A stretch of DNA of 26,215 nucleotides from a virus. A program made the translations under genes and the position numbers. The stretch covers positions 1 to 26,215 of IMG/VR virus record IMGVR_UViG_3300019764_000020. One strand, given 5' to 3'. The notes under the pieces were generated by a model. It was given only the letters and a program-made list of their open reading frames with translations. It searched no databases and was not told the DNA's origin. Of this stretch, positions 18,869 to 26,215 are shown piece by piece (the first letter of the stretch is position 1; each line of letters opens with the position of its first letter).

Positions 18869-18924
18869 CTTCATAACGCAATATTTAAGTGCATTAAAAC
18901 GCACTAAATATTTACGTTATGAAG
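18869..18924. repeat. Long near-perfect hairpin, attC-like ends
   Basis: CTTCATAACG (18869-18878) pairs with CGTTATGAAG (18915-18924), then AATATTT...AGTGC pairs with GCACT...AAATATT with one or two bulged bases. The whole arm is about 22 bp. It lies 8 bases beyond the last minus-strand stop. The ends (CATAACG/CGTTATG) match those of the hairpins at 19970 and 26031. Confidence 0.6.
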
Positions 18925-18932
18925 TAATAAAA

Positions 18933-19259
18933 TTATTCTGTCAGTTGTTTAATAAACCTTTCATTTCTTGCTGAAAGTATCTCTATATTGAATTTAATAA
19001 TATCAATAGGCAGTTCAGAAGAAAGTAATTTATCTATTTCATTCCTGTTTTTATTTATTTGTTCACGCAATTGCATGTTGTCCATAATTTGACTACTCAT
19101 AACATCAGGCTTAACAACATATTCTTTAACTGAGTTCAATACAGATTCAAGTTCATTTTGCATAGGTTGCCGTTCACCACTACCTGTTTCTATATCCTTT
19201 AATCCACCGTCAAAGTATTCTAACACTTCTATTATATTTTTAATTAACTGTTGTCTCAT
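18933..19259 (-). CDS. Small helical protein, unknown function
   Basis: A 108-residue helical, mixed-charge protein, last gene of the early operon. It contains NELESVLNSVKEYVVKPDVMSSQIMDNMQLREQINKNRNEIDKLLSSELP, a probable coiled coil. No family or motif is recognised. Its stop is followed 12 bases on by the attC-like hairpin 18869-18924, and it starts 50 bases after the R''-like box behind methyltransferase 1. The start codon overlaps one of three ATTCGTT repeats on the plus strand. Confidence 0.5.
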   Translation of the reverse strand: MRQQLIKNIIEVLEYFDGGLKDIETGSGERQPMQNELESVLNSVKEYVVKPDVMSSQIMDNMQLREQINKNRNEIDKLLSSELPIDIIKFNIEILSARNERFIKQLTE

Positions 19260-19308: not shown

Positions 19309-19317
19309 GTTAGCAAC
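19309..19317 (-). repeat. R''-like box after methyltransferase 1
   Basis: On the minus strand this reads GTTGCTAAC, starting 2 bases after the methyltransferase stop. It is the exact inverted repeat of the copy at 19970-19978 that lies upstream of the same gene. No complete hairpin follows it. Confidence 0.6.
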
Positions 19318-19319
19318 AA

Positions 19320-19940
19320 CTAAAATAGTCGCTGTTGCATAGTTTCGTTTTTAAATCGTTTGACAGCATCGTTAAAATAGTCGCTATCAATATCAATTCC
19401 TACATATTCAACAAAGCCGAAATAATAAGCAGAAATTGCAGAGCTGGCAGAACCAAAGTTTGTATCAATAATTTTCCATTCTTTTTGAGCTTTCGCAAAA
19501 TCAAAACAGAAGTCATATAATTTAACAGGTTTTTGTGTAGGGTGTATTTTATTCTTTTCAGCTGTTACAACGTGCTTTGAATAAATCTTTGCAGGCTTTT
19601 GAAACGAAGTCCACGCCATTTCGCACATTGCAGATGTAAAATTATAAGGCTGTTTTTTATCCCAAATTATAAACCCCTGTGTCGGTTGTAAATCAAAATA
19701 ATTACCACCCCAAATAATCTGATTTTTTGAAATACGGAATATTTCAGCAAAAAATAATTCGTTTGGTATTTTTTCGTCCCAATCTTTTTTAGCTTGCTTT
19801 TGCCTAAATGAATTTGAAGCAATTCCAATCCCATATTCAGGGTCTAAACAAGCCAAATCAAAGTAATTATCTGGATATTGTGCCATAATTTTCATATTAT
19901 CGGCACAAATTAACTTTATATTTTTTTTTGTAAATTCCAT
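19320..19940 (-). CDS. Beta-class DNA methyltransferase with altered DPPY motif
   Basis: A 206-residue protein with the beta-class motif order of N6-adenine or N4-cytosine methyltransferases: catalytic motif IV near the N-terminus (LDPEYGIGI, residues 32-40), HPTQKP at 133-138, and SAM-binding motif I near the C-terminus (IIDTNFGSAS, about 157-166). Methylation of phage DNA typically protects against host restriction. Motif IV is DPEY rather than DPPY and motif I is FGSAS rather than FGSGS, so activity may be altered or lost. No target recognition region of normal size is visible and no endonuclease gene lies beside it. It is related to 25341-26003 in motifs, length and the LF C-terminus. It is bounded by 9-bp inverted repeats. 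Confidence 0.8.
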   Translation of the reverse strand: MEFTKKNIKLICADNMKIMAQYPDNYFDLACLDPEYGIGIASNSFRQKQAKKDWDEKIPNELFFAEIFRISKNQIIWGGNYFDLQPTQGFIIWDKKQPYNFTSAMCEMAWTSFQKPAKIYSKHVVTAEKNKIHPTQKPVKLYDFCFDFAKAQKEWKIIDTNFGSASSAISAYYFGFVEYVGIDIDSDYFNDAVKRFKNETMQQRLF

Positions 19941-19969
19941 ATTTTTAGATTGATAAATAAAAAAAAAGA

Positions 19970-20050
19970 GTTGCTAACATTGTACTGGTCGTAATTCAAT
20001 TTTTTTTCTTTTAAAAAAATTAAACTACGCCAGTACATTGCCGTTATGGG
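19970..20050 (-). repeat. attC-like hairpin upstream of methyltransferase 1
   Basis: The minus strand has CCCATAAC (R''-like), spacer, then TGTACTGG (20037-20030), an inner part, CCAGTACA (19988-19981), and GTTAGCAAC (19978-19970, R'-like). The inner arms continue as CGTA/TACG past one unpaired base (T19989), as in the extrahelical bases of attC hairpins, and A/T-rich arms close the loop. The R'' region includes the stop codon of the upstream gene (TAA at 20044-20046). Confidence 0.5.
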
Positions 20051-20376
20051 TAATAGTAAAACAACGAAATTAAAACTATACTCACAGTTGTGAAAATATG
20101 ATAGATATTAAAAAATGGACGTTCCAAATTTCTACAATCCTCTGTAAACATCGCAAAGAAAATACCCATTAAAGGAATGATAAATGCAATATCAAATAAT
20201 TTAACTCGAAATTTATGTATTTTAAAATATTCAGTGAGCCCATTTTCTTTATGGTATTTGTTATATTTTATTTTTATAGAGCCAAAAAAATGACTTATTT
20301 GTAAGTGCCAATAAATTACTCTAAAATTCAATATTTCTTGTAGTTTTTCTTCCATTTTTTTATTTATTTTTTTCAA
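20044..20376 (-). CDS. Small two-pass membrane protein, unknown function
   Basis: A 110-residue protein with a basic helical N-terminus (KKINKKMEEKLQEILNFRVIYWHLQISHFFG) and two hydrophobic segments near the C-terminus (LFDIAFIIPLMGIFFAMF, about 58-75, and IFTTVSIVLISLFYYY, about 93-108), separated by a short loop containing CRNLERPFF. The stop codon is part of the attC-like hairpin that follows. There is a 6-base gap to the upstream gene at 20383, so it is in the early operon. No family is recognised. Confidence 0.5.
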   Translation of the reverse strand: MKKINKKMEEKLQEILNFRVIYWHLQISHFFGSIKIKYNKYHKENGLTEYFKIHKFRVKLFDIAFIIPLMGIFFAMFTEDCRNLERPFFNIYHIFTTVSIVLISLFYYYP

Positions 20377-25329: not shown

Positions 25330-25338
25330 GTTAGGCTC
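25330..25338 (-). repeat. R''-like box after methyltransferase 2
   Basis: On the minus strand this reads GAGCCTAAC, 2 bases after the methyltransferase stop, and GCCTAAC fits the integron R'' consensus RYYYAAC. It is the exact inverted repeat of 26031-26039 upstream of the same gene. Confidence 0.6.
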
Positions 25339-25340
25339 AA

Positions 25341-26003
25341 CTAAAACAGCGACAAAACAGCCGTTTCACGTTTGAGCCAGTTAATTGCATTTTGATAATA
25401 TTCTTTGTCAATTTCGCAAGCTGTCAAAGATAAATTCATTTTATCATACTTATTCATTTTATCAATTGCCAATCCGTGTGAACCACTTCCGAAATGTGTA
25501 TCTAATATTTTATAATTTTCTTTTGCGTAATTTTTTAATAGCCATTGATATAAATCAATAGGTTTTTGCGTCGGGTGTTGTGTGCCGTCTTTTTTTAATA
25601 TAGCTCTGTTCTTTGTCCATATTCGTGTTGGACAATCAAAAGAACTATAAGCAAGCTCACAATCTGACATAGTTAAACCGTGCTGAGCTTTATCCCAAAT
25701 AATCCACCCTTTATGCCCTTCTTTTAAATGTTCTACAAAGTAATTTGCACCCCAAATAATTTGATTTTTTGAAACTCTGAAAAGTTCTGTAAAATATTCA
25801 GGCGGTGGTATTTCTTTATCCCATCCTTTTTTTTTATGATTTTTTCTGTCTGATTTTTTACCTTTGATATTCTCTTTTTGTCCGTCAATTCCAATACCAT
25901 AAGGTGGGTCAACTATTGCTAAATCGAAATGATTATCTGAATATCTTTTCATCAAATCAATATTGCTTTCATTTGTAATTTCTATATTCTCGTTTATTTT
26001 CAT
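25341..26003 (-). CDS. Beta-class DNA methyltransferase
   Basis: A 220-residue enzyme of the N6-adenine/N4-cytosine beta class. Motif IV is VDPPYGIGIDG (residues 31-41), HPTQKP is at 143-148, and the SAM motif I is ILDTHFGSGS at about 166-175. All key residues are intact, so this copy should be active. Phage methyltransferases of this size usually methylate a short site and protect DNA against restriction; no cognate nuclease is beside it. It has a Lys/Gly-rich insert after motif IV (QKENIKGKKSDRKNHKKKGWDKE) compared with methyltransferase 1. It is bounded by 9-bp inverted repeats, with an attC-like hairpin before it. Confidence 0.85.
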   Translation of the reverse strand: MKINENIEITNESNIDLMKRYSDNHFDLAIVDPPYGIGIDGQKENIKGKKSDRKNHKKKGWDKEIPPPEYFTELFRVSKNQIIWGANYFVEHLKEGHKGWIIWDKAQHGLTMSDCELAYSSFDCPTRIWTKNRAILKKDGTQHPTQKPIDLYQWLLKNYAKENYKILDTHFGSGSHGLAIDKMNKYDKMNLSLTACEIDKEYYQNAINWLKRETAVLSLF

Positions 26004-26030
26004 TTGATAAGTTTGATTAGTAAAAAAAGA

Positions 26031-26102
26031 GAGCCTAACATGTGCTTGTAGTCAATTTTGCCTGAAAAAGGCAAAACAGCCACAAGCACCACCGTTATGC
26101 AC
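26031..26102 (-). repeat. attC-like hairpin upstream of methyltransferase 2
   Basis: On the minus strand: GCATAAC (26100-26094, R''-like), GG spacer region, GTGCTTGT (26089-26082), an inner hairpin TTTTGCC/GGCAAAA (26076-26070 with 26062-26056), ACAAGCAC (26049-26042), then GTTAGGC (26039-26033, exact R' consensus GTTRRRY). Length about 70 bases, within the attC range. It follows the stop of the partial gene at 26112 by 11 bases, as attC sites follow cassette genes. Confidence 0.58.
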
Positions 26103-26111
26103 AATGATTAA

Positions 26112-26215
26112 TTAAACTGGTCGATTATTGGACAATAATTGTTCTTTATTTAGATACTTACACGTTTCGCATTTAGGATATTCTATTTTATTAGCATTTT
26201 TGATGATAAATTCAA
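26112..26215 (-). CDS. C-terminal end of an unknown protein (5' part outside window)
   Basis: The last 33 codons of a minus-strand frame, stop TAA at 26112-26114. The visible protein ends EFIIKNANKIEYPKCETCKYLNKEQLLSNNRPV. One CxxC pair (CETC) hints at a metal-binding knuckle. It is followed 11 bases on by the attC-like hairpin, so it would be the preceding gene in a cassette-like array. Nothing else can be said from the part seen. Confidence 0.5.
   Translation of the reverse strand, partial: EFIIKNANKIEYPKCETCKYLNKEQLLSNNRPV

Follow-up and report, generated by a model that had tools for sequence, protein, structure and literature searches.

What encloses a DNA methyltransferase gene of a phage between two short sequences that are exact inverse copies of each other? 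In the 26,215-nt stretch of viral DNA analysed here (the window), the gene for methyltransferase 2 (MTase 2) lies between GAGCCTAAC (26031-26039) and GTTAGGCTC (25330-25338), the latter an exact inverted copy of the former. Both are present just as reported by the initial annotation, which took the gene for an integron-type cassette. The window probably represents a tailed phage of a Bacteroidota host, judging from the relatives of its MTase and of the contig; it encodes RecT and a single-stranded DNA-binding protein (SSB), and its capsid protein is only 26% identical to that of a Porphyromonas phage.

The MTase 2 gene (25341-26003, minus strand) encodes a protein of 220 aa that belongs to the N6/N4 DNA methyltransferases by both its Pfam profile (N6_N4_Mtase, PF01555, E-value 1.5e-12) and its DPPYG catalytic motif, and that has DpnA, RsrI and CcrM as relatives in the PDB. 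An attC-like hairpin (26033-26100, minus strand), identified by a structural scan and by its likeness to the attCs of contig L002 (see below), precedes the gene and reads GCATAAC-GGTG-GTGCTTGT...ACAAGCAC-AT-GTTAGGC on the gene strand. Behind the gene, 4 nt past its stop codon, the lone box GCCTAAC (25330-25336, minus strand; GTTAGGC on the plus strand) is the exact complement of the inner box of the hairpin, and the match with its extension comprises 9 bp (25330-25338). The hairpin was said to lie just after the stop of another gene, and indeed 11 nt separate it from the stop codon at 26112-26114, which belongs to a phage ORF lying upstream, the 3' end of which (26112-26215, minus strand, with a CxxC motif) runs off the contig. 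Folding as single-stranded DNA, proposed as a check, gave strong structures on both strands and the stronger one on the gene strand (-18.6 kcal/mol, z -5.2, with none of 200 shuffles as good, versus -14.8, z -3.5). With the cut positions taken from the Flavobacterium phage indels described below, the MTase 2 cassette in canonical attC orientation would extend from G^TT to G^TT over 764 bp of the plus strand (25331-26094), with the gene antisense, the ends TTAGGC... and ...CACCG, and TTATGC as the next bases.

A second unit of this type, missed by the initial annotation, surrounds MTase 1 (19309-20049). Its attC-like hairpin (19972-20049, minus strand) was found by the structural scan and has a fold z of -5.85 on the gene strand and -4.1 on the other; the stop codon of the neighbouring gene 20044-20376 falls within its outer box CCATAAC. 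The lone box TGCTAAC (19309-19315, minus strand) begins 4 nt beyond the stop codon of MTase 1, and GTTAGCAAC (19970-19978) and GTTGCTAAC form a perfect 9-bp complement. Both MTases of the window share one layout: the start codon follows the hairpin after about 30-38 nt, and the lone box stands 4 nt behind the stop codon of the gene. Both hairpins show the R and L arms of an attC. By the same cut positions, the putative MTase 1 cassette in canonical orientation comprises 734 bp of the plus strand (19310-20043), again with the gene antisense. The 206-aa MTase 1 (19320-19940, minus strand) was recognised by a PHROG profile only (DNA methyltransferase, phrog_67, E-value 5.7e-26), and by our own reading of the motif order it may be assigned, together with MTase 2, to a beta-class-like type of N6/N4 DNA methyltransferases. 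Its variant motif DPEYG in place of DPPYG is common to only 4 of 152 homologue matches. A third, nearly perfect hairpin of 52 nt with the ends TCATAAC/GTTATGA (18871-18922) follows the gene 18933-19259, which it adjoins at a convergent gene border. Its loop GTTTTAAT recurs among the short attC hairpins that P12002L, JQ and L090 carry; no partner box was found near it, and it might represent either an empty attC or a terminator.

An initial loose hairpin scan of both strands gave scores that alone were no better than those of shuffled sequences, and a partner-box test was therefore added. The resulting unit rule requires YAACG, an 8-base arm and GTTR, and in addition an 8-mer that is exactly complementary to the inner box and lies 150-2500 nt downstream of it. 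It was fixed after these sequences had been seen and is hence shaped on them, and unrelated sequence served as the control: neither a Streptococcus phage genome with an MTase homologue nor 107 kb of mostly Clostridia loci contained a hairpin with a partner. The window contains two units under this rule, while one unit was found in 3 of 300 dinucleotide shuffles and two in none. A wider scan of eleven phage genomes or contigs (Bacteroidota phages) and about 70 MTase-selected viral loci yielded 89 hairpin candidates. The complementarity of start and end boxes, on which the cassette proposal had been built, extends from both window MTases to this set, where an exact 8-mer partner on the gene strand lies downstream of 62 candidates (3.8 in shuffles, at most 7). 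An upstream partner accompanies 38 of the 89 (6.65 expected from shuffles), and these are mostly the partners of neighbouring units within arrays. In total, 69 candidates are supported by a partner upstream, downstream or both. The view that integron cassettes are very unusual in tailed phages was not supported.

The boxes themselves are divergent. The inner box of MTase 2 fits the integron consensus GTTRRRY/RYYYAAC, as had been pointed out, and that of MTase 1 does not; across the 69 hairpins the strict consensus on the gene strand is found in only 6 (GTTRRRY) and 1 (RYYYAAC), with the AAC/GTT core kept, so that the conformity of MTase 2 stands while most of the family deviates from it. In 53 of the 69 hairpins the fold of the gene strand is the better one, and in 10 it is the worse one (Wilcoxon p 9e-10; the hairpins are related and thus not independent), and the tally of G.T pairs is 174 versus 71. 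The same bias is seen in partnerless hairpins (13 better, 4 worse). Extra-helical bases, compared by eye, occupy contradictory positions in different hairpin subfamilies and give no consistent polarity. Hairpin lengths are bimodal, with one group of about 54-81 nt and a sharp one of about 130-136 nt. An Rfam search of the window produced no match.

The MTase 2 gene was found in a second context. The 21.5-kb IMG/VR contig L002 carries a copy with 95% protein identity, and the DNA of the two is 93% identical from the last bases of the attC 3' end to just past GCCTAAC, while the flanking genes differ. L002 also contains a large-terminase-like gene and about seven attC hairpins in one orientation, mostly with single genes between them. 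Its hairpins are the closest sequences to those of the window (none of 1000 base shuffles was as similar to the L002 attCs as the MTase 2 hairpin). The two MTase 2 hairpins diverge much more than the gene. A CALIN consists of two or more clustered attCs and lacks intI. The two attCs of the window, about 6 kb apart, do not form a cluster, whereas those of L002 and of the Flavobacterium lillamyviruses form true clusters. A short attC pattern searched across viral contigs matched L002; two further matches were rejected as chance occurrences inside genes. A second pattern, based on the conserved arms, matched two contigs. In three short viral contigs (L071, L090 and L103), two or three distinct MTase genes follow one another, and an attC-like hairpin of its own precedes every one of them. 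The initial annotation had also proposed a link to chromosomal cassette arrays of Flavobacteriaceae; it was not supported, as the one genome scan returned only Clostridia-type relatives lacking hairpins.

Excision of the window units would leave TAAAGTACACCG joined to TTATGCACAATG and CCTGTATTCG joined to TTATGGGTAATAG. A search for such empty sites, using RecT relatives and the exact empty-site pattern, yielded one distant relative and no match, and the neighbour genes of the units had weak relatives or none in phages. The clean junctions anticipated earlier were not found for the window phage, which had no relative close enough, but they are plain in Flavobacterium phages. Six closely related lillamyviruses were compared, some pairs repeatedly, so that the comparisons amount to a handful of events. 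Array gains and losses between near-identical phages break at YAACG. Insertions of 476, 439 and 794 bp share TAACGTT, ATAACG and ACATAACG, respectively, at their ends (6-8 bp containing TAACG), and a fourth of 1181 bp is located at TTAACG. All four add a hairpin and the gene behind it, and the old hairpin stays with its old downstream gene. The lillamyviruses and the muminvirus snusmum6-2 have the backbone sequence TACAATATTACATG in common, to which three different last cassettes are fused, always exactly after AAC; this joint looks like a platform end and may be comparable in position to attI. Within the first 10 kb of the lillamyviruses L041, L053 and L127-L132, about 9-11 hairpin + gene units per phage form one array, which encodes MTases, one HTH protein and numerous small uncharacterised proteins.

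Owing to the symmetry of the boxes, a single site cannot tell whether the hairpin belongs to the preceding or to the following gene. We assign it to the following gene because the isolated units, the partner counts, the lillamyvirus insertions and the fold bias agree; the last is given less weight, since the hairpins are related and partnerless candidates lean the same way. The insertions and junctions at YAACG/AAC in the Flavobacterium phages therefore indicate that the moving unit would be the hairpin with the gene behind it. This polarity, a further addition to the initial annotation, is the reverse of that in class 1 control arrays, where the hairpin follows the gene and the same box test found start/end pairs for 6 of 7 genes; the genes of the phage units accordingly lie on the attC bottom strand. 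The classical layout, with the gene on the attC top strand and attC downstream, is thus absent here, as the hairpin precedes the gene. A top-strand gene with a downstream attC is the usual, not absolute, arrangement in integrons.

Four other explanations were weighed against two single-gene cassettes of reversed polarity. The units might be ordinary gene-forward cassettes, the hairpin belonging to the upstream gene and the gene's own 3' attC having been lost just after its first box. Both layouts look alike locally because of the box symmetry, and a degenerate long attC does follow MTase 2 in L002. We nevertheless regard this as quite improbable: an identical truncation would be required for each of the two window MTases and again in L066, L087 and L090, where the isolated units likewise have a full hairpin ahead of the gene and only a box behind it, the insertions in Flavobacterium phages place the hairpin upstream of the new gene, and downstream partners are much commoner than upstream ones. 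Even less credible, and in our opinion nearly negligible, is the explanation that the hairpins are plain terminators or regulatory stems with box complementarity by chance. The hairpins are intergenic and other hairpins exist in the window (18871-18922), but the shuffles, the unrelated-sequence controls and the indel junctions all contradict it.

The other two explanations concern the agent of movement. The integron integrase profile TIGR02249 had no match in the window, L002 or nine phages, and control sequences matched it only below the cut-off; this agrees with the earlier statement that no integron integrase is visible, and with no intI match the locus does not qualify as a complete integron. 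Profiles for Phage_integrase, Y1 transposases and resolvases had no match in the window, L002 and the phages tested, while the Pfam controls matched as expected. IntegronFinder 2.0 is reported to find almost no complete integrons in Bacteroidetes (PMC9024848). Since recombinase matches are missing in the phages and integrons are scarce in Bacteroidetes, the recombinase, if one exists, presumably acts in trans. The lack of a match would also suit homologous or microhomology recombination at short repeats (TAACG) without any site-specific recombinase, as would the 6-8 bp shared by the insertion ends and the RecT and SSB of the window phage. This mechanism leaves unexplained both the complementary unit ends and the maintenance of hairpins despite sequence divergence, and the last cassettes join exactly after AAC despite little other homology; we therefore consider it improbable. 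Somewhat more room, though still on the unlikely side, is left for a non-integron enzyme, such as another host tyrosine recombinase (Xer) or a single-strand transposase. The divergent boxes, the reversed polarity and the near absence of integrons in Bacteroidetes (PMC9024848) speak for it. Against it stand the missing matches to Y1 transposases, resolvases and Phage_integrase in the phages tested, and two findings that point to integron chemistry, namely the box complementarity of a closed circle and the recombination by IntI1 of an attC from Polaribacter phage P12002L (Qi et al. 2023, PMC9892861). In our wider scan this phage carries hairpin-gene-box units of the window type.

An integron-type (attC) cassette without an integrase is thus supported as the best reading of the MTase 2 unit, and we hold it probable that each of the two MTases forms a single-gene, attC-type mobile cassette of its own, inserted independently of the other and with the gene on the attC bottom strand. 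Points against this view are the lack of recombinase matches in the phages and the rarity of integrons in Bacteroidetes, the R boxes that mostly break the classical consensus, the inconsistent extra-helical bases, the missing empty site, the strong divergence between the two MTase 2 hairpins and the fold bias of partnerless hairpins. In the proposed mechanism, the single-stranded gene strand would fold its attC, and an integron-type tyrosine recombinase, supplied in trans by the host or a co-resident element, would cut the outer box at AA^C (G^TT on the other strand). In the circle so released the boxes would be perfectly complementary, and its new target could be a G^TT site or a different attC; phages with the inserted gene co-directional with the operon would be kept. 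The MTases would probably protect the phage DNA against host restriction. A broader possibility, which we put forward only tentatively, is that Bacteroidota phages share a pool of bottom-strand-gene cassettes inserted at platform sites by a recombinase other than a classical integron integrase; DNA-modification genes, among others, would then be exchanged through a network that has no integrase.

Phage attC cassettes, some with MTases, are already known: Qi et al. 2023 (PMC9892861) report 17 CALINs in 10,705 phage genomes, which resemble the window in their attC-like sites, the lack of an integrase and the MTase cargo. They also note divergent attC directions in P12002L, a phage with two MTases. 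Units with the hairpin ahead of the gene, lone boxes complementary to it and cassette swapping in nature are not described in their main text, and some of the phages covered there may overlap with ours. Nor was a report of any of these three features found in the open-access literature searched, which included that main text. Class 1 integron cassettes share the complementary start and end boxes and the hairpin attC with the window units but have the hairpin after the gene, attI before the first gene, boxes near GTTRRRY and an integrase beside the array. Another likeness is to cassettes that insert at attG sites, which are not attCs (Loot et al. 2024, Nat Microbiol, as cited in PMC11023631): a single cassette that entered a G^TT away from any integron would be flanked by one attC and a lone box. 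As described in that citation, attG insertion concerns bacterial genomes with an active integrase, whereas here it would be deduced from phage sequence. The Flavobacterium phages whose arrays were compared here are those that Nilsson et al. 2020 (PMC7077304) described from the Baltic Sea; that paper does not mention integrons, cassettes or hairpins, and it links poor plating on strain LMO6 to the absence of a specific MTase in some of these phages.

Among the proteins carried by the units, 20 of 53 have the Pfam domain N6_N4_Mtase, a proportion biased upward because many loci were chosen by MTase homology. If our reading is true, virulent phages of an abundant group of marine and freshwater bacteria carry modular cassette arrays that close relatives gain, lose and swap although they encode no integrase themselves, and phages could trade protection against host restriction enzymes in the form of cassettes. 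The reported tracking of second-host plating by MTase presence (PMC7077304) would tie cassette exchange to host range in testable isolates, and the reversed polarity would offer a natural way to examine which factors determine the choice of strand and the direction of genes when integrons recombine.
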